44,640 nucleotides of DNA from an uncultured Bacilli bacterium (GTDB lineage: Bacteria > Bacillota_I > Bacilli_A > RF39 > UBA660), in NCBI GenBank assembly GCA_947623935.1, contig CANQIE010000006.1, positions 1 through 44,640 on the forward strand, written 5' to 3'. Each line of letters starts with the position of its first letter. Within the stretch, counting starts at the first letter, position 1. Shown one piece after another: positions 4,202 through 44,640 of the stretch. The notes below the pieces were generated by a model. That model searched no databases and was not told the DNA's origin. It saw only the letters and a program-made list of their open reading frames with translations. A program made the translations under genes and the position numbers.

Positions 4202-4345
4202 TTACCGTATAGGAGCAAGTACAAGGCGGAGCGAACAATCACCACGACCTCCTCCGGTTTGACCAACAAAGAAGAAAACTCCGAATAACGGATAATTCAT
4301 AATTGGCGGACTTCCAGGGACATTACCTCCACGAAGAAGCCATGG
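4202..4345 (-). other. Hypervariable C-terminal segment of gene A (VR-like)
   Basis: Encodes the last 47 residues from PWLLRGG to the stop. Scaffold residues (RGG, GVF, the conserved G, LVLAPI) match paralogues B and C; the residues between differ. This is the position and pattern of a DGR variable region. No template repeat or reverse transcriptase was found in the window. Confidence 0.55.
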
Positions 4346-6154
4346 ATACGTAGAAGTTACAAAGAGTGCTTGATCACCATACCACCATGCGGTCTCGGAT
4401 AAATCATGCCCATAACACACGCCTCCATTACATGCCGTTTCTGATAATCTAAAATCATTTGAATCAGGAATGTCATTGGTATATAAATCATAATATTTTT
4501 CTTCTGGTAGCCTATTTGTTTCACCTTCGGTTTTAAATCCGGAAGCACCAACTAGAGGTTCTTTGTTTTCATCACTTAAAACACCCATAACATATTCCAA
4601 TTCTCCTCCAACCATATCATAAACTCCTGTAACATTTCCAGTTGTCGATGTTGTTTGTCCATTAATTGAATCATAGGTATCACCGCTTACTAATACTCCA
4701 GTTGTATATGGTTCACCACAATTTAGTGCTACTTGCTTTTCAGTTTGATTATAAGCACTATTTCCATATTTTCCATATTTACTTTGGGATAAATAAGCAA
4801 CCGACGCCCATTCACTATTCTTAATCATGTGAATATCATAACTGCTATCATTTAAGAAGCCATACTTTTGATAATCTTTTGTTTGCATATTTCTTGACAT
4901 ATAGAACAAATCAGCTATTCTTGTCCAATTTATAGGTGTTGCTGCTGGTTTAACTTCTAATTTATTTTCTTTATCTTTACTAGTTTCAAACTTGGCATAC
5001 CAAAATCCTGTTAGTTCATCTTCTCCAAATTTAAATGCTGGTTGTATTCTATAATTTACATCACTTGCATCTGTGTTTTTTTCATTGATAAAGTTGATTT
5101 GTATTTCTCCTGGATTTGGATAACATGTATTACCTTCACTATAATTACTGCCATTAAAAATACAATCTTCTCCTTGTCCACTTGTTCCTTCAGGTATATA
5201 GTATTCATATCTTGGTATCCATACCCACATCGTGTTAATATCGGTCATTGATATTTCAGTTCCGGCAGGTTCACTCGTATAATGGTCTCTTGTTTCAGAA
5301 GTTACGGTTACCGCATTCGCCCATTCTTGCATCTCATAATCATACCATTTTTTATTAAGATCTGCTTTCACCCATGACTTCTTGTTATTATCATATCTAA
5401 CGGGTATTAATCCTTCGATTAAGTTTGGATAATTGGCTCCACTTTCGTCTTTGTATACTCCTGGTTTTTCTAGTATTGGTAGTTCTCCATTTTGAGCATA
5501 CACATTTACTTTTACTGAAAAGATCATGTTATTGTATATCCATGAACCATTGACTACCGAGTTGGCATCATTATCTACCCACATCCTATAACGAAAAGTT
5601 TTAGTGTATTCCGATTGTCCATCTTCTATTCTTTCTCTATATAATGTTTTAGCTCCTGAAATACTTGTATCTTTTAATAAATCCGGTACCTTACTATTAT
5701 ATAAATCACTATATAGATTTAACGCATTATTGGTTGGTAGTCCACTCCCTGTTAATTCTTTTTCTTCTCCATTTTCTACTTCCTGTAAATAAGTCTTTAC
5801 GGTATATTCTGGTAAAGTAGAAGTGCTTTCCTTTGTTAAATAAATTTCATAATTAATGGCTGCTCCCCTAGTTGTTGCTTTGATATCAAAATCAAATACT
5901 CCCTCTTTTTCCGTAGTCAATACCATTCCCTCTTCATCACTTATTGGAAATGCATTCGTTAACGATATTTTATTCTTTTCTACTCTAGTTTCATCATAAA
6001 CAAAGGTTAATGTTCCTGTTTGTAATGTATTCTCTGTTGTTCCTTGTCTTGAATATTGAAAGAAGGCAAAAGTGGTTCCTACCGTGATTAAGACTAAACT
6101 TAATACGAGCAAGCAAACAGCAATGAGTTTTTTTCCATTTCTCTTATCTTTCAT
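4202..6154 (-). CDS. Surface protein A: SipW/TasA-like export signal plus FGE/C-type-lectin-like domain with variable C-terminus
   Basis: A 650-residue exported protein. Residues about 8-32 form a hydrophobic segment ending in TTFAFFQYS, followed by GTLTFVYDE, the pattern of SipW-processed TasA/camelysin-type proteins. The middle carries INTMWVWIPRYEY and GFWYAKFETS. The last ~200 residues follow a formylglycine-generating-enzyme/C-type-lectin pattern (TGNVTGVYDMVGGELEYVMG, then PWLLRGG, GVF and LRLVLAPI). It is one of four paralogues. Its variable insert between RGG and GVF is 14 residues, against 8-9 in the others. No LPXTG or C-terminal membrane anchor is seen. The start is fixed by an AAGGAG 10 bases upstream; a nearer ATG runs into a stop. 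Its promoter contains a G8 tract. Function is inferred as surface display or ligand binding. Confidence 0.8.
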   Translation of the reverse strand: MKDKRNGKKLIAVCLLVLSLVLITVGTTFAFFQYSRQGTTENTLQTGTLTFVYDETRVEKNKISLTNAFPISDEEGMVLTTEKEGVFDFDIKATTRGAAINYEIYLTKESTSTLPEYTVKTYLQEVENGEEKELTGSGLPTNNALNLYSDLYNSKVPDLLKDTSISGAKTLYRERIEDGQSEYTKTFRYRMWVDNDANSVVNGSWIYNNMIFSVKVNVYAQNGELPILEKPGVYKDESGANYPNLIEGLIPVRYDNNKKSWVKADLNKKWYDYEMQEWANAVTVTSETRDHYTSEPAGTEISMTDINTMWVWIPRYEYYIPEGTSGQGEDCIFNGSNYSEGNTCYPNPGEIQINFINEKNTDASDVNYRIQPAFKFGEDELTGFWYAKFETSKDKENKLEVKPAATPINWTRIADLFYMSRNMQTKDYQKYGFLNDSSYDIHMIKNSEWASVAYLSQSKYGKYGNSAYNQTEKQVALNCGEPYTTGVLVSGDTYDSINGQTTSTTGNVTGVYDMVGGELEYVMGVLSDENKEPLVGASGFKTEGETNRLPEEKYYDLYTNDIPDSNDFRLSETACNGGVCYGHDLSETAWWYGDQALFVTSTYPWLLRGGNVPGSPPIMNYPLFGVFFFVGQTGGGRGDCSLRLVLAPIR

Positions 6155-6187: not shown

Positions 6188-6214
6188 ATTATAAAACTAC
6201 CCCCCCCATGTCAA
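6188..6214 (-). promoter_or_regulatory. Poly-G spacer promoter of gene A (G8, 15-bp spacer), candidate phase-variable
   Basis: Minus strand TTGACA (6209-6214), then T, eight G (complement of C at 6200-6207), TAGTTT, and TATAAT (6188-6193). The spacer is 15 bases, two short of optimum, and would change by one for each G gained or lost. Confidence 0.75.
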
Positions 6215-11446: not shown

Positions 11447-11575
11447 TTAATTTACAATAGGAGCAAGCACAAGGTGAAACGCAAGCATATAATACCAACC
11501 ACCATTAGTACCGGAAAGATAAAACACTCCTGCGTCCCATTGATTACCATAAGTACCACCACGCATAATCCATGG
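11447..11575 (-). other. Hypervariable C-terminal segment of gene B (VR-like)
   Basis: The last 42 codons. Between RGG and GVF it has eight residues, and the 22 residues after GVF align in length with all paralogues while differing at most exposed positions. His replaces the Arg of the usual FRLVLAPI ending. Confidence 0.55.
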
Positions 11576-13432
11576 ACTCGCCGAGTCTGGAAAATAAAAA
11601 GTATCACGATACCAACCTGATGTTTCAGATAAAGCGTGCCCATAACATACATGTCCACCACATGCTGTTGTGGCTAGATTTCCATCATTCGAAGATAAAT
11701 CATTACTTGTATATAAATCATAATACTTAGCATCAGGCATTCTCTTTTCACTGGTTTCATCATAAACAAATCCAGATGATGCTATAATTGGTTGTCCATT
11801 TTCATCACTTAAGACACCCATGACACGATCAGCTGATCCTCCACTCATATCATAGATTCCTGTAATATTTCCAGTCGTTGATGCTTTTTGACCTATTTCT
11901 GTATTATAAGTGTTTGTACTACAAGTATCAGTACTTTGAAATGCATTTACAGAATTTCCTGCTATTCCTGTTATATATTGCATACAGTTATTAATAAATA
12001 CCCCTTCTCCATCATTTCCATATTTTCCATATTGACTTTGGGAGAGATAAGCAACTGCTCCCCATTCACTATTCTTACTCAAATGCGTATCCATATTTTC
12101 ACCAGTAAATCCATATTCAGTTTTATAATCAGTCATCATTTTTTGAGATACTATAAAGGCAGACGCATTTTGTATATATCTCCATGAGATTGCATTTGGT
12201 TTAATGTATGGTTTTAAATCAGTTTTATTACAAGTTTCTGTACTTTCTTCACACTCAGAGCTTGTACTTGTCTCAAACTTTCCATACCAAAATCCTGTTA
12301 ATTCATCTTCTCCAAATGTAAACGCTGGATGTACTCTATAATCATCGGTACTTGCTATATTACTAGTTCCATTGATAAAGTTGACTTTAATTTCTCCTGG
12401 ATTTGGATAACAATCATAATCTACACTATAAGCTGTGCAAACACTTTTATTTCCTCTTGTTCCCTCTGGTATATAGTATTCATATCTTGGTATCCAGACC
12501 CACATCGTGTTGATATCATCTATTAATATAGGTGTTCCTGGTTCTGCTTTTTGATAATATTCTCTATCATGGCCAGCTTCTGCTTCTGTCTTCTCTACTA
12601 CCGTTACTGCATTCGCCCATTCTTGATTACAGTAATTGTACCAGTTAGCGGTTTTTGCATTTGCTTTCTTCCAGGTTGCTTCTTCATAATCGTAATATAC
12701 TGGTATCATTCTTTCTACCAACTTTGGTTCATTGACATTACTATCATTACAAATCTCAGCTGGATCTGTTGGTCCAGGTATACTATTGTTTTGCGCATAT
12801 ACATTTACTTTTACAGAAAAAGTCTTATAATTATGAATCCATTCTCCTCCTCTTACTTGATTAGCATTCTCATCTACCCACATTCTAAAACGGAATGTCT
12901 TTGTAATTTCTTCTTCATTTACACTTCCTTGATATAACGTCTTTCCAATTACTTCTTGTTTTAACATCGATGGAACTTTACTTTCTCCTAACTCACTATA
13001 TAGATTGATTGCCTCACTTGTAAATAGATTGGATACTCCTGATTCTATATTTTCACCTGTTACTTCTGTTAAATACGTCTTTACTGCATATTCTGGTAAA
13101 GTAGAATTATTATCCTTTGTTAAATAGATTTCATAATAGATAGAAGCCCCTTTTGCTTCCGATCTTACTTGGAATTCAAAAAAGCCTGTTCCTGTTTGTT
13201 TTACTCCATCAGTATCACTCATTGGAAAAGCATTCGTTAGACTTACTCCATTTTTTTCTTTTCTATTTTCATCATAGATAAAAGTTAAGGTACCTGACTC
13301 TAATTTATTTACGGTAGTTCCTTGTTTTGAATATTGAAAGAAAGCAAAGGTGGTTCCTATTGCAATTAAAACAAGACTTAATACAAGTAGACAAACTGCG
13401 ATTATCTCCTTTTTAGTTCCTTTCTCTTTCAT
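11447..13432 (-). CDS. Surface protein B: SipW/TasA-like export signal plus FGE/C-type-lectin-like domain with variable C-terminus
   Basis: A 661-residue paralogue of A, C and D. The N-terminus has a hydrophobic segment (about 8-32) ending in GTTFAFFQYSKQGTT, then GTLTFIYDE as in camelysin/TasA-like proteins. The middle holds INTMWVWIPRYEY and a cysteine-containing stretch (EGTRGNKSVC...DCYPNPGEI) shared in form with A but not with C or D. The C-terminal domain has TGNITGIYDMSGGSADRVMG, CYGHALSET and PWIMRGG...GVFYL...LVLAPI. About the first 315 residues are nearly identical to C. The start is set by AAGGAG about 10 bases upstream. The promoter carries a G9 tract. A single-gene unit with its own terminator; a role in surface binding is inferred. 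Confidence 0.8.
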   Translation of the reverse strand: MKEKGTKKEIIAVCLLVLSLVLIAIGTTFAFFQYSKQGTTVNKLESGTLTFIYDENRKEKNGVSLTNAFPMSDTDGVKQTGTGFFEFQVRSEAKGASIYYEIYLTKDNNSTLPEYAVKTYLTEVTGENIESGVSNLFTSEAINLYSELGESKVPSMLKQEVIGKTLYQGSVNEEEITKTFRFRMWVDENANQVRGGEWIHNYKTFSVKVNVYAQNNSIPGPTDPAEICNDSNVNEPKLVERMIPVYYDYEEATWKKANAKTANWYNYCNQEWANAVTVVEKTEAEAGHDREYYQKAEPGTPILIDDINTMWVWIPRYEYYIPEGTRGNKSVCTAYSVDYDCYPNPGEIKVNFINGTSNIASTDDYRVHPAFTFGEDELTGFWYGKFETSTSSECEESTETCNKTDLKPYIKPNAISWRYIQNASAFIVSQKMMTDYKTEYGFTGENMDTHLSKNSEWGAVAYLSQSQYGKYGNDGEGVFINNCMQYITGIAGNSVNAFQSTDTCSTNTYNTEIGQKASTTGNITGIYDMSGGSADRVMGVLSDENGQPIIASSGFVYDETSEKRMPDAKYYDLYTSNDLSSNDGNLATTACGGHVCYGHALSETSGWYRDTFYFPDSASPWIMRGGTYGNQWDAGVFYLSGTNGGWYYMLAFHLVLAPIVN

Positions 13433-13495
13433 GAGATCACTTCTCCTTTTATTATTTATCTATTTCTATTATAAAACTACCCCCCCCCAGGTCAA
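12476..13495. repeat. Near-identical ~1.02 kb block, copy 1 (gene B 5' half and promoter)
   Basis: Aligns without gaps with 19120-20139, covering the promoter, G9 tract, start and about 318 codons. Only scattered substitutions are seen. It ends abruptly just after the WVWIPRYEY motif. Confidence 0.8.
13468..13495 (-). promoter_or_regulatory. Poly-G spacer promoter of gene B (G9, 16-bp spacer), candidate phase-variable
   Basis: Minus strand TTGACC (13490-13495), T, nine G (complement of C at 13480-13488), TAGTTT, TATAAT (13468-13473). Confidence 0.75.
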
Positions 13496-16695: not shown

Positions 16696-16718
16696 AAGGA
16701 GGTATCCCTCCTTTTTTT
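16694..16718. terminator. Bidirectional terminator between glmM and the repeat-protein gene
   Basis: AAAGGAGG and CCTCCTTT pair around TATC, with T-tracts on both strands. It separates converging genes. Confidence 0.85.
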
Positions 16719-18054
16719 ATTTATCTAAAGTAAAGAGCCATCCTTGATAATCTTTTCCATTATGACCTGATTTAGCTAAGTCATGATCATTACTTCTAGA
16801 ATGTCCTACAGCTAACAAATGGTCTTCTTCTATCGTCAAATATAAGATGTTATCGTCATTCTTTCCGCCATAAGCCTTTTTATCTAAGATTTCTCCATTT
16901 AAATCCATTTTAACGATTAATCCCGTCATTTCATCTTCTTCATCACTTGGATTTTCCAATTCCCCATCATGAGAAGTAAAATGTCCTACAACATAGAAAG
17001 TATCCTCTACCAAATAAGCACTTTGATAACGTTCATAGTTACTTCCACCAAAAGACTTTTCAAAAAGAAGTTTTCCATCCGTATTGTATTTAACTACAAG
17101 AGCATCCGTATTAGTCGTATTTCTTTGTGCATCTAAATCCGCATCTCCAGTATCGGTCCAAATTTTTTTACTACCAAAGACATAAATACTATCGTCTTTT
17201 ACAATGACATCTTTAAATCCATCTGAATCGGTGTAACTGTAATTACGTACCCATTTACGATTTCCTTTTTCATCATAGAAAACGGTAATTCCGGTATCTT
17301 TTGAATCTCTTCCTACCACCACATAACCACCTTTAGCTTTAGCAATGGCACTAAAGATACCTGATTTGTTTCCTCCATAGTTACTTGCCCATACTTCTTC
17401 ACCATTTAAATCGTATTTAACAATGATACCTCCACCCGTCGTGTGGTTTCCAATTTCCAAGTTTTCATAAATACTTTGACCAATTACTACATAGCCATCA
17501 TCTTCGACTAAAATATCTAAGAATTTAGAATCGGATAAAGTTTTATAATGTTTTTCCCAAACTTTATTACCTTCTAAATCATATTTAATAAATAGCGCTT
17601 CACGAATATTGTTTTCTTTTTCATAATCTGTTAGTTCGGCACTTCCTGCAACAAGATAACCATCATCTATTTTTTTAACAGCACTAAAGGAAGAATTTTG
17701 TCCATCGTCGTACATGACTTCCCATAAGAGTTTATTGTCTTTATCATACTTAGCAAGACGTCCTTTTTCAATACCATTAGTATAATCATATTTTGAACTA
17801 TAACGGAAATCACTGCTACCTGCAATAATACGATCTTCTCCATCGACATCCACCATACTAAAGGCCTCATAATAAGTCGTATTCTGTTCTCTTTGATATT
17901 GCATAATCACAAAAAGAATTCCTTCAATTAAAATAATACCCAAACAAATAAGTCCAATGATTTTTAAAATCTTCTTTAATCGTATATTATTATAATCATT
18001 AATATCTTGTTTTTTATTTTCTTGTCTCTTATTTTCTTTCTTTTTCTTTGTCAT
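16717..18054 (-). CDS. Membrane-anchored beta-propeller-like repeat protein
   Basis: A 445-residue protein with a highly charged Lys/Glu/Asn N-terminus (1-25), one membrane segment (about 28-52), and an extracellular region of repeated blades. The repeat includes KYDxxGxxxWExxYGG-like units (ALFIKYDLEGNKVW, GIIVKYDLNGEEVW, ALVVKYNTDGKLLF, GLIVKMDLNGEIL), spaced about 55-80 residues apart, each followed by a GYVVVG-like strand. This resembles PQQ/WD-like propellers found in secreted bacterial proteins of unknown role. N-terminal orientation suggests the propeller faces outside. It is monocistronic. I do not recognise a specific function; binding or scaffolding is a guess. Confidence 0.75.
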   Translation of the reverse strand: MTKKKKENKRQENKKQDINDYNNIRLKKILKIIGLICLGIILIEGILFVIMQYQREQNTTYYEAFSMVDVDGEDRIIAGSSDFRYSSKYDYTNGIEKGRLAKYDKDNKLLWEVMYDDGQNSSFSAVKKIDDGYLVAGSAELTDYEKENNIREALFIKYDLEGNKVWEKHYKTLSDSKFLDILVEDDGYVVIGQSIYENLEIGNHTTGGGIIVKYDLNGEEVWASNYGGNKSGIFSAIAKAKGGYVVVGRDSKDTGITVFYDEKGNRKWVRNYSYTDSDGFKDVIVKDDSIYVFGSKKIWTDTGDADLDAQRNTTNTDALVVKYNTDGKLLFEKSFGGSNYERYQSAYLVEDTFYVVGHFTSHDGELENPSDEEDEMTGLIVKMDLNGEILDKKAYGGKNDDNILYLTIEEDHLLAVGHSRSNDHDLAKSGHNGKDYQGWLFTLDK

Positions 18055-18138: not shown

Positions 18139-18264
18139 TTAAGCAATAGGGGCAAGCACTAAGCGGAACGAGGAGCTGATGAGCGGCTCACCGTAGCTAT
18201 CGCTGAAACCGAACACTCCCGTAGGCGCGCCATCATGGTAGGCGCCGCCGCGACCGAACCACGG
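18139..18264 (-). other. Hypervariable, GC-rich C-terminal segment of gene C (VR-like)
   Basis: The last 41 codons and the stop. By my count 77 of the 124 bases at 18141-18264 are G or C, and the coding strand is poor in A (about 14). A depletion is what repeated A-to-N mutagenesis would leave, although recombination with foreign DNA would look similar. Confidence 0.55.
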
Positions 18265-20076
18265 GAGCGTAGAGATTATATTGTTATGAGTATCTCCATA
18301 CCAAGCTAAAGTCTCTGATAAAGCATGTCCATAACATATACTTCCATTACATGCTTTTGCAATATCTGTTCCTTTATATAAATCATAATATTTATCTTCT
18401 GGTATTTTGTTACCTTGAGCATCGCCAGAAACAAATCCAGATGATGCTATAGTTGGTTGTTCATTTTTATCACTTAAGGCACCCATAACACGCTCCCAGG
18501 ATCCACCACTCATATCATAGATTCCTGTGATGTTTCCTGTCGTAGATGCTTTTTGACCTTGTATTGTATCATAAGTATTTGTACAAGTATTACTTTGTCC
18601 TGCACTTGCTGTATTTCCTGCGATTCCTGTAATCAAACTAGAACAGTTATTTATATATACTTCTTTGTCATTCTCTCCATAAGTATCATTTCCATATTTG
18701 CCATATTTACTTTGGGAGAGATAGGCAACTGAACTCCATTCACTATTCTTACTCATATGCGTATTTATTTCTTCACCTTTAAATCCATAGGTTGATGCCT
18801 TTGTTGAATTCATACTTAATGAAGCATAGAAAGCATTTGATATATTTATCCATCTCCATGATACTACTCCTGGTTTTATTACTGGAGTTAAATTCGAATT
18901 ATTAGCAGGTCCATCATTAAATATTTGTTCTTCATTACTAGGTTCAAACTTTCCATACCAGAAGCCTGTTAATTCTTTATCTCCAAAGGTAAAGGCTGGA
19001 TGCATTTTATAATTATTTTCATCACTTACTTTGCTGCTTGTTCCACTTATGAAGTTAACTTTTATTTCTCCTGGTTGAGCTTGAGTTTCTCCTGCATAAT
19101 TTGCAATACTTACATAATTGTATTCATATCTTGGTATCCACACCCACATCGTATTGATATCATCTATTAATATAGGTGTTCCAGGTTCTGCTTTTAGATA
19201 ATCTTCTCTATCATGACCAGCTTCTGCTTCTGTCTTCTCTACTACCGTTACCGCATTTGCCCATTCTTGATTACAGTAATTGTACCAATTGGCTGTGTTA
19301 GCATTTGCTTTCTTCCAGGTTGCTTCTTCATAATCATAATATACCGGTATCATTCCATCTACCAACTTTGGTTCATTGACATTACTATCATTACAAATTT
19401 CAGCTGAATCTGTTGGTCCAGGTATACTATTGTTTTGCGCATATACATTTACTTTTACAGAAAAGGTTTTATTATTATGAATCCATTCTCCTCCTCTTAC
19501 TTGATTAGCATTCTCATCTACCCACATTCTATACCGGAATGTCTTTGTAATTTCTTCTTCATTTACACTTCCTTGATATAACGTCTTTCCAATTACTTCT
19601 TGATTTAATAGTGATGGAACTTTACTTTTTCCTAACTCACTATATAGATTGATTGCCTCACTTGTAAATAGATTGGATACTCCTGATTCTATATTTTCAC
19701 CTGTTACTTCTGTTAAATACGTCTTTACTGCATATTCTGGTAAAGTAGAATTATTATCCTTTGTTAAATAGATTTCATAATAGATAGAAGCCCCTTTTGC
19801 TTCCGATCTTACTTGGAATTCAAAAAAGCCTGTTCCTGTTTGTTTTACTCCATCAGTATCACTCATTGGAAAAGCATTCGTTAGACTTACTCCATTTTTT
19901 TCTTTTCTATTTTCATCATAGATAAAAGTTAAGGTACCTGACTCTAATTTATTTACGGTAGTTCCTTGTTTTGAATATTGAAAGAAAGCAAAGGTGGTTC
20001 CTATTGCAATTAAAACAAGACTTAATACAAGTAGACAAACCACGATTATCTCTTTCTTAGTCCTTTTCTCTTCCAT
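18139..20076 (-). CDS. Surface protein C: SipW/TasA-like export signal plus FGE/C-type-lectin-like domain with variable C-terminus
   Basis: A 645-residue paralogue of A, B and D. Its N-terminal ~315 residues, including the hydrophobic signal and FAFFQYSKQGTT, are nearly identical to B. After INTMWVWIPRYEY it switches to a different segment (ANYAGETQAQPGEI) that resembles D rather than B, so the gene looks mosaic. The C-terminal domain has TGNITGIYDMSGGSWERVMG, CYGHALSET, PWFGRGG, GVFGF and SFRLVLAPI, the FGE-like lectin pattern of DGR targets. The last ~125 bases are about 62% G+C in otherwise AT-rich DNA. The promoter carries a G9 tract and the gene has its own terminator. Surface-binding role is inferred. 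Confidence 0.8.
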   Translation of the reverse strand: MEEKRTKKEIIVVCLLVLSLVLIAIGTTFAFFQYSKQGTTVNKLESGTLTFIYDENRKEKNGVSLTNAFPMSDTDGVKQTGTGFFEFQVRSEAKGASIYYEIYLTKDNNSTLPEYAVKTYLTEVTGENIESGVSNLFTSEAINLYSELGKSKVPSLLNQEVIGKTLYQGSVNEEEITKTFRYRMWVDENANQVRGGEWIHNNKTFSVKVNVYAQNNSIPGPTDSAEICNDSNVNEPKLVDGMIPVYYDYEEATWKKANANTANWYNYCNQEWANAVTVVEKTEAEAGHDREDYLKAEPGTPILIDDINTMWVWIPRYEYNYVSIANYAGETQAQPGEIKVNFISGTSSKVSDENNYKMHPAFTFGDKELTGFWYGKFEPSNEEQIFNDGPANNSNLTPVIKPGVVSWRWINISNAFYASLSMNSTKASTYGFKGEEINTHMSKNSEWSSVAYLSQSKYGKYGNDTYGENDKEVYINNCSSLITGIAGNTASAGQSNTCTNTYDTIQGQKASTTGNITGIYDMSGGSWERVMGALSDKNEQPTIASSGFVSGDAQGNKIPEDKYYDLYKGTDIAKACNGSICYGHALSETLAWYGDTHNNIISTLPWFGRGGAYHDGAPTGVFGFSDSYGEPLISSSFRLVLAPIA

Positions 20077-20139
20077 GATATCACTTCTCCTTTTACTATT
20101 TATCTATTTCCATTATAAAACTACCCCCCCCCACGTCAA
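19120..20139. repeat. Near-identical ~1.02 kb block, copy 2 (gene C 5' half and promoter)
   Basis: Gap-free partner of 12476-13495, including promoter hexamers, nine-base C tract and about 318 codons. Evidence for recent duplication or gene conversion. Confidence 0.8.
20112..20139 (-). promoter_or_regulatory. Poly-G spacer promoter of gene C (G9, 16-bp spacer), candidate phase-variable
   Basis: Minus strand TTGACG (20134-20139), T, nine G (complement of C at 20124-20132), TAGTTT, TATAAT (20112-20117). Confidence 0.75.
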
Positions 20140-42924: not shown

Positions 42925-43056
42925 TCATTCACCCATAGAAACAAGAACAACACGAAACGAACCAGCCTGATTTCCCGCACCACCGCTCATCTCAAATTGA
43001 AACACTCCTGTGCCTTCACCGGAATGTATGGAACAACCGCCGCGAGCAAGCCATGG
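42925..43056 (-). other. Hypervariable C-terminal segment of gene D (VR-like)
   Basis: The last 43 codons and the stop. Nine residues lie between RGG and GVF, and the 22 after GVF keep the family length. Like C, it is richer in G and C than its surroundings. Confidence 0.5.
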
Positions 43057-44640
43057 ATAAGTAGAACTCACAAATCCGTCCCAATCTTGATACCAGCTTA
43101 AGGTTTCTGATAGTGCATGCCCATAACATACTCTATTAGCACATGCTGTTTCAGCATTGGTTACATTATATAAATCATAATATTTTTCATTTGGTAACTC
43201 TCTTCCATTAGATATTGGACCATCACTATTTAATTCTCCATTGAATCCTGAATTAACAATATTGCTCGTTCCACTTCTTGGCTTTCCATCTTTATCAGCT
43301 AGAGCGCCCATTACATATTCCCATGAACCACCATTCATATCATAGACTCCTGTAATATTTCCAGTAGTTGAGGCCTTCTGACCTTTCAAAGTTTCATAAG
43401 TGTTTGTACAAGTATCACTCCGTCCTGCACTTACTGTGTCCCCTGCTATTCCTGTTATATATTTATCACAGTTGTTTTTATATACTTCTTTATCATTTAT
43501 TTCATATATATCATTTCCATATTTCCCATATTTGCTTTGAGATAGGTAGGATACTGCACCCCATTCACTATTCTTACTCATATGCGTATCAATACTTTCA
43601 TTATTGTTAAATCCATATTTTATAGCATTTGTTTCTAATTTCATATTGAATGACACATAAAACATAATTGCTACTTGCACATGTTTCCATGAGATTACAT
43701 TTGGTTTTATGATTGGTGTTAAAGAGGAATTGTTTTCTTGTTTTCCTTCTTGATTACTGGTTTCAAACTTTCCATACCAGAAGCCTGTTAATTTATCTTC
43801 TCCAAAGTTAAAGGCTGGATGTACTTTATATTTTTCATTACTTGCTGTATCATTAATTCCATTTAGAAAGTTAATAACTATTTCTCCTGGTTGTTCAGCT
43901 GTTCCTCCCGCATATTGATCCCCTAAATTCGTATATTTGTATTCATATCTTGGTATCCACACCCACATCGTGTTGATATCATCCATTGGTATTTTAGTTC
44001 CTGCTTCTGCTGTTTGATAACTCTCTCTTTTCTTAGTACCTACTCCATCTTCATCTAAGCCTATCGTTACAGCATTAGCCCATTCTTGTTTGTCATAATT
44101 ATACCATTTCTTTGTTGTATCTGCTTTTACCCAAGAGTTTTGACTTTCATCATAGACAACTGGTATTAATCCTGTTACTAATTCAGGTGCATTAGGTTCC
44201 ACTCTTTCATAATTTCCTGTAATTTCTTCTTCTGTATCTGTTATAGCTAATGTTTTATTACTTAATCCACATTTCCCATTTAATGTTACTGTCTGAGTTG
44301 TATTCGTTTTATTTATTAATTTTATGGTATAGGTTCTTGTTTCTCCTACAGATAAATTTTCTTTATCAATAAAGTCTCCATTACTAGAAGAAGCTAATAC
44401 TTCTACATTATCATTTTTTAAATAAGTGATGGTTGAATGTATTGGTACTTGACTATCATTTCTTATCGTTACTTCTACTTCTTTTTCGGTTTGATTTACT
44501 AATTCAATTTGATTACCCTCTATTCCTTCTATTTGTATAGGACAAGAAAGCGTTCCTGCCACAATATTAAGTGCACCTTTCTTTTCTACTTTCGTTGTAA
44601 ATATGGCATAACTAAAACCAAGAATTCCTACCACCATTAG
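42925..44640 (-). CDS. Surface protein D (partial at right edge): FGE/C-type-lectin-like domain with variable C-terminus
   Basis: At least 571 residues; the frame is still open at the window edge, so the start is outside. The visible N-terminus has a hydrophobic end (MVVGILGFSYAIFTTK) and a beta-rich region unlike A-C (TLSCPIQIEGIEGNQIELVNQTEKEVEVTIRND). From GLIPVVYDE onward it aligns with the family: INTMWVWIPRYEY, YAGGTAEQPGEI, GFWYGKFETS, GNITGVYDMNGGSWEYVMG, CYGHALSET, PWLARGG, GVFQF and SFRVVL. The usual LAPI ending is VSM here. It ends in TGA. Whether it has a poly-G promoter cannot be seen. Export and surface binding are inferred from paralogy. Confidence 0.8.
   Translation of the reverse strand, partial: LMVVGILGFSYAIFTTKVEKKGALNIVAGTLSCPIQIEGIEGNQIELVNQTEKEVEVTIRNDSQVPIHSTITYLKNDNVEVLASSSNGDFIDKENLSVGETRTYTIKLINKTNTTQTVTLNGKCGLSNKTLAITDTEEEITGNYERVEPNAPELVTGLIPVVYDESQNSWVKADTTKKWYNYDKQEWANAVTIGLDEDGVGTKKRESYQTAEAGTKIPMDDINTMWVWIPRYEYKYTNLGDQYAGGTAEQPGEIVINFLNGINDTASNEKYKVHPAFNFGEDKLTGFWYGKFETSNQEGKQENNSSLTPIIKPNVISWKHVQVAIMFYVSFNMKLETNAIKYGFNNNESIDTHMSKNSEWGAVSYLSQSKYGKYGNDIYEINDKEVYKNNCDKYITGIAGDTVSAGRSDTCTNTYETLKGQKASTTGNITGVYDMNGGSWEYVMGALADKDGKPRSGTSNIVNSGFNGELNSDGPISNGRELPNEKYYDLYNVTNAETACANRVCYGHALSETLSWYQDWDGFVSSTYPWLARGGCSIHSGEGTGVFQFEMSGGAGNQAGSFRVVLVSMGE

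Follow-up and report, generated by a model that had tools for sequence, protein, structure and literature searches.

A GC-rich gene end in an uncultured Bacilli bacterium as a probable VR of a dispersed DGR target family

Described systems and the family in this genome

Diversity-generating retroelements (DGRs) with dispersed targets, as far as we found them described, act on only a few target genes. Treponema denticola isolates, for example, have 2 to 7, and isolates without a reverse transcriptase (RT) keep leftover targets (PMC4891356). Cyanobacterial DGRs have remote variable proteins (PMC7517822) and nanoarchaea carry RT-less DGR fragments (PMC4372165). Yan et al. described DGRs in which many variable regions (VRs) share one template repeat (TR); one of them comprised 91 TR-VR pairs (PMC6642488). 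Multiplicity alone is therefore not new. Phase-variable promoters, of which a homopolymer in the spacer between the -35 and -10 elements is the hallmark, are found at Neisseria porA/opc and Mycoplasma hyorhinis vlp.

We analyzed a window of 44,640 nucleotides from an uncultured Bacilli bacterium (contig CANQIE010000006.1 of assembly GCA_947623935.1) that contains gene C and three of its paralogs (Table 1). Across the 1.15-Mb genome the family is spread over at least 41 distinct VR ends, which take the form PW..RGG...GVF...G....SFRLVLAP and are an open frame in all 41. The arrangement resembles the Treponema denticola DGR (TvpA family; PMC4891356), in which one cassette serves several dispersed CLec-fold targets with a 3'-end VR and targets are kept in some isolates after loss of RT and TR. 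The present case differs in having at least 41 targets rather than 2 to 7, in the survival of TR and leader without an RT, and in the G-tract promoters of the targets, which are unreported in the available part of that source (PMC4891356). Remote targets and RT-less fragments, either fossil or trans-diversified, are also shared with the cyanobacterial and nanoarchaeal DGRs, although these have fewer targets per genome, and the available parts of both reports mention no phase-variable promoter (PMC7517822, PMC4372165). The TaqVP DGR of Thermus aquaticus (PDB 5VF4; PMC6328139) is alike in its FGE-subtype CLec fold and AAY-coded variable C-terminal residues; however, TaqVP is prophage-borne and single-domain, whereas the gene C product bears a TasA-like domain in addition, at its N-terminus, and belongs to a large bacterial family. 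Our reading, to which we give a probability of about 0.92, is that gene C is a DGR target whose GC-rich end block is the VR, and that it is most likely one of a now-drifting repertoire among whose members G-tract slippage would choose.

Table 1. Coordinates and strands of the family genes, the gene C VR, and the G-tract promoters in the window
Feature	Position	Strand	Remarks
VR of gene C	18145..18273	-	ungapped alignment to C2 TR; core W...FRLVL at 18154-18261
Gene C, variable protein, 645 aa	18139..20076	-	N-terminal hydrophobic segment, TasA-like beta domain, CLec (FGE-subtype), terminal VR
Gene B, paralog, 75% identity to gene C	11447..13432	-	VR about 11456-11590
Gene A, paralog	4202..6154	-	VR about 4208-4342, 6 codons longer
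Gene D, paralog, different N-terminus	42925..44637	-	VR about 42934-43053
Gene C promoter	20112..20139	-	TTGACG-T-G9-TAGTTT-TATAAT; G9 inside 16-nt spacer
Gene B promoter	13468..13495	-	G9 tract
Gene A promoter	6188..6214	-	G8 tract, 15-nt spacer

Composition, template, and protein of the gene C end

The initial annotation had described the end of gene C as an abrupt GC-rich, A-poor block, and its counts hold: G and C make up exactly 77 of the 124 bases at 18141-18264, and the coding strand has 14 A in this interval (16 over 18139-18264). The block also stands out from AT-rich surroundings as described, with a window mean GC of 33.4%. Against an average of 41.4 G/C and an SD of 6.1 for 124-bp windows, it lies about 5.8 SD above the mean, and the top 124-bp window of the whole stretch (18149-18272, 80 G/C) is at the same gene end. 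The windows ranked second and third (42958-43081 with 65 G/C and 4303-4426 with 62) coincide in part with the ends of two further members of the family, and the end of gene B (11460-11583, 58 G/C) is tied for fourth; the feature is therefore a family trait and not confined to gene C. At third codon positions of gene C, the last ~44 codons have a GC of 0.68 compared to 0.19 in the gene body, and A falls from 0.44 in the body to 0.05 in the tail.

A codon-level alignment to a template repeat, suggested as a check, could be made because a TR was found in the same genome at C2:58704-59008, just 3' of one family gene, and the gene C end aligns to it without gaps. This TR reads NPWFKRGGNYNDGTNAGVFNFNNNNGNANSNNSFRLVLAP; it is rich in AAC codons and in GC, the form expected of a DGR template repeat. 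Homology begins about 4 codons before the PW motif, near 18273, slightly off the PW-RGG boundary that had been proposed. Mismatches between the gene C VR and the C2 TR fall on 21 of 31 template adenines but on 14 of 77 other bases (p=1.4e-6, descriptive only because related sequences are not independent). Pooled over 31 VRs of this genome, the mismatch rate by template base is 66% for A, 43% for C, 27% for G, and 25% for T, and the VRs of gene B and of paralog L005 differ from each other at 13 of 31 A columns and 5 of 77 non-A columns. AAY codons of the template become NNY in the VRs: rewritten AAY codons retain a pyrimidine third base in 12 of 13 cases in gene C, in 83% across the own family, and in 256 of 315 in a larger ungapped set. 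For amino acids that allow either a Y or an R third base, the ratio is 170:34 in family VRs, whereas the bodies of the four window genes give 462:781 (p=3e-36, descriptive for the same reason). Such an excess is not what ordinary selection for changed amino acids would be expected to produce. Relatives do share the composition and show synonymous drift, as the initial annotation had envisaged for a long-standing conserved end, but where their amino acids vary, they do so mainly at codon positions with a template adenine, in an NNY pattern.

The suggestion that A-to-N replacement shaped the block stands in kind, as a template exists, differences concentrate on its adenines, and the VRs are poorer in A and mostly richer in GC than the template. 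As a cause of the GC rise it accounts for only a part, because the template itself is GC-rich (0.51, with the window at 0.33) and already holds about 18 of the 29 percentage points by which the gene C VR exceeds the window in GC. Simulated A-to-N replacement on the TR, using the replacement frequencies observed in the family, gave a GC of 0.646 +/- 0.024 and an A content of 0.096, in comparison to 0.626 and 0.114 in the gene C VR. Non-A differences to the C2 TR amount to 18% for gene C and the same for the VR adjoining the TR, which is high for an active DGR (the adenine concentration is cleaner in the congeners described below). The C2 TR is therefore not a recent parent of these VRs, and other templates, long drift, or both are required; the parent template of the gene C VR was probably one other than the C2 TR itself.

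A GC-rich hairpin near the VR 3' end occurs at congener cis VRs and at 5 of 40 VRs of this genome, and at neither the TRs nor gene C. The palindrome GTAAG-CGA-CTTAC lies just past the stop codon of paralogs L014 and L011 and of congener VRs, and gene C is without it. In their N-terminal halves genes B and C are nearly identical, and in their C-terminal halves they differ, a mosaic pointing to possible recombination among paralogs. Gene D starts at the window and contig end, which places its promoter outside the window, and a 445-aa neighboring gene at 16717-18054 had no Pfam match.

The AlphaFold model of the gene C product is of moderate confidence (mean pLDDT, 64). Its top Foldseek match was the DGR variable protein TaqVP (5vf4; E=4e-7, prob 1.00), at a low TM-score of 0.25-0.42, which assigns the target a CLec fold at that level of model confidence. 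A TasA fibre matched weakly (E=4e-3), as did FGE-sulfatase in 7 of 26 paralogs. Gene C on its own yielded no usable hit in Pfam and NCBIfam scans and none at all in a PDB sequence-profile search. On this model, the product would be an exported TasA-like N-terminal part bearing a CLec domain, the replaced VR residues are expected to line a ligand site, and the protein would presumably be surface exposed and bind a ligand.

G-tract promoters of family members

A G6-G10 tract lies between TTGAC and TATAAT in 20 of the 21 family members examined, gene C included. In the whole genome we identified 40 G-tract promoters with G8-G10, of which 31 have a 16-nt spacer; in a tally from coordinates, 34 are upstream of family members or N-terminal-only relatives, 5 are at contig ends, and the remaining one, L302 (C4:37173, minus strand), stands before a non-family gene, read over 426 aa and possibly SPFH-like. 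No G/C run of 7 or more occurs in the window outside the three promoters of genes A, B, and C, and reversed-pattern controls gave 0 hits. Congeners G001 and G003, both with the family and with DGR cassettes, have 26 and 27 such promoters, respectively, compared to 0 in G002, where the same search shows no member of the family, and 0 in G004, an incomplete genome whose family matches are all weak. In G001 the promoter spacer measures 19-20 nt, off the optimum.

With tract lengths taken as assembly values, G9 gives a 16-nt spacer, so that single-base slippage would give 15 or 17. The homopolymer thus sits inside the -35/-10 spacer of a surface-type protein promoter at lengths giving 15-17 nt, as in Neisseria porA/opc and Mycoplasma hyorhinis vlp. 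Unlike in those systems, the family driven here is DGR-diversified, and switching is a prediction from the promoter sequence. We consider it likely that the G tracts make the family promoters phase variable by slippage. A full-text search, viewed as titles and abstract openings, returned no published link of this sort between DGRs and phase variation, which is weak evidence of novelty.

Cassettes of congeners and the fate of the enzyme

Complete DGRs, with RT, Avd, and an adjacent TR, are present in two congeners. In G003 (the public MAG Lapin-032 bin119, an uncultured Bacilli bacterium), a single 3.1-kb contig (C130) that is broken inside a VR contains a VR end, hairpin, TR, leader of ~180 nt, MutS_I-domain protein, Avd (NCBIfam score 80.3 against a cutoff of 80), and an RT matching RVT_1 with the motif IGNYTSQ. 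G001 has two RT/Avd cassettes, one with RT, Avd, and a partial TR at a contig end (C92) and one with RT and Avd (C79). It also has a separate VP-VR-TR locus without an adjacent RT, where VR/TR mismatches are at 11 of 32 A, 3 of 31 G, 0 of 31 C, and 0 of 29 T. Between two VRs of G003 (L053 and L062), differences occupy 57% of adenine columns and 1% of the remaining ones. These VR data of G003 and G001 indicate that adenine mutagenesis operates in the genus.

Further observations concern the RTs and templates of these genomes. At L061 (G001:C15), an orphan VP-VR-hairpin-TR without an RT is followed by a gene called RecD-like from its sequence, a layout pointing to satellite templates that are served in trans. 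At L038 (G001:C5), the gene immediately upstream of a family member encodes a group-II-intron-type RT; the congener RTs L036-L038 were not counted as DGR RTs because they are group II intron RTs. A search of IMG/VR with the RT found only distant relatives, with at most 42% identity in full-length matches, and a close-relative scan of IMG/VR contigs gave no match to the gene C protein family; a phage home for the family is therefore not indicated.

The C2 TR and leader of our genome are 96% identical to their G003 counterparts, compared to 93% for tyrS DNA between the two genomes. Horizontal transfer of the cassette between them was considered and dropped, as this tyrS identity makes vertical descent sufficient. 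At C2, inside a 77-kb contig, the MutS-like, Avd, and RT genes of G003 are absent, and the TR is followed by a terminator-like inverted repeat and then by unrelated genes, one of them YqfD-like as called from sequence. A second site, on C18 (L005, 1-470), holds a relic cassette in which the leader is kept, the MutS-like frame is cut off some ten codons from its start, and the whole is fused directly to a variable gene with a TR-type tail (APRL*). Neither a DGR RT (by PF00078 or the congener RT protein) nor Avd (PF22296) was detected in the assembly. As this assembly consists of 50 contigs, is 93% complete, and is interrupted at many family members, the absence of an RT is not proof of its loss. 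The nearest-neighbor VR distance at non-A positions is typically ~0.26 here versus ~0.10 in G003, a comparison biased by the G003 VR set having been partly picked by similarity to its TR. Most likely, the 41 or more ends are an old repertoire now drifting, and we lean slightly toward a repertoire made by a DGR that later lost its enzyme and is now frozen.

Under the mechanism that we propose, an AAY-codon-rich and GC-rich template RNA would be reverse-transcribed by the DGR RT together with Avd, adenines would be copied to any base, and the cDNA would take the place of the gene C 3' end, which would then have NNY codons, few A, and a high GC content. Mutagenic homing at gene C is what we infer from its sequence. 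The target would be a C-type-lectin-fold protein of surface type, the RT/Avd/MutS-like operon would have gone from the TR locus, and the choice among members would probably be made by slippage of the promoter G tracts.

Two explanations would dispense with a retroelement at this locus. One is that a GC-rich C-terminal cassette was recently imported by horizontal transfer, the other possibility raised by the initial annotation, which fits the abruptness of the compositional boundary; it found no support, since ends of this kind are shared by two congeners and by 41 or more paralogs and align codon by codon to a native template, and the gene C family has the null IMG/VR result given above. The shared native template refutes it, and we regard import as scarcely credible. 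Ordinary diversifying selection combined with recombination among paralogs would account for mosaic genes such as B and C, but it fails to predict a non-target AAC-rich template, the adenine bias, the skew in NNY third bases, a GC jump limited to ~130 bp, or a congener VR pair so unequally divergent at adenine and other columns, and it is very improbable. A DGR origin of the gene C block, by comparison, is very highly probable.

Whether that DGR has ceased to act is a closer matter. It may still be active, with RT and Avd in the missing ~7% of the genome or on a short unbinned contig, working in trans on dispersed targets from the C2 or an unseen template. Incompleteness favors this, with many contig ends falling inside family members and the G003 cassette itself on a short contig broken in a VR, as do the conservation of the C2 TR and leader above that of tyrS, as if constrained, a TR without adjacent RT in G001 despite its two RT cassettes, and open frames in all 41 VRs. 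However, remote VRs are at least as close to the C2 TR as its neighboring VR is (14 of 77 non-A), VR-VR distances at non-A positions are mostly large, and at both sites expected to carry cassette genes these are lost or truncated. We give continuing activity a substantial chance, but one short of even, and lean slightly to a drifting repertoire whose enzyme has been lost.

In a single 1.15-Mb genome, at least 41 diversified ends are found together with orphan template loci without an RT and contingency-locus-like promoters. A tentative picture is a two-layer system in a gut lineage of Bacilli with a tiny genome, in which a DGR with trans-acting or satellite templates would have written at least 41 lectin-like surface proteins and G-tract slippage in the promoters of almost all members would pick those displayed, the enzyme having been lost while template and repertoire were kept. 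Such a system would connect two separate mechanisms of bacterial surface variation. Congeners with an RT and this genome, apparently without one, would offer a natural before-and-after comparison of how a DGR repertoire persists once mutagenesis stops.
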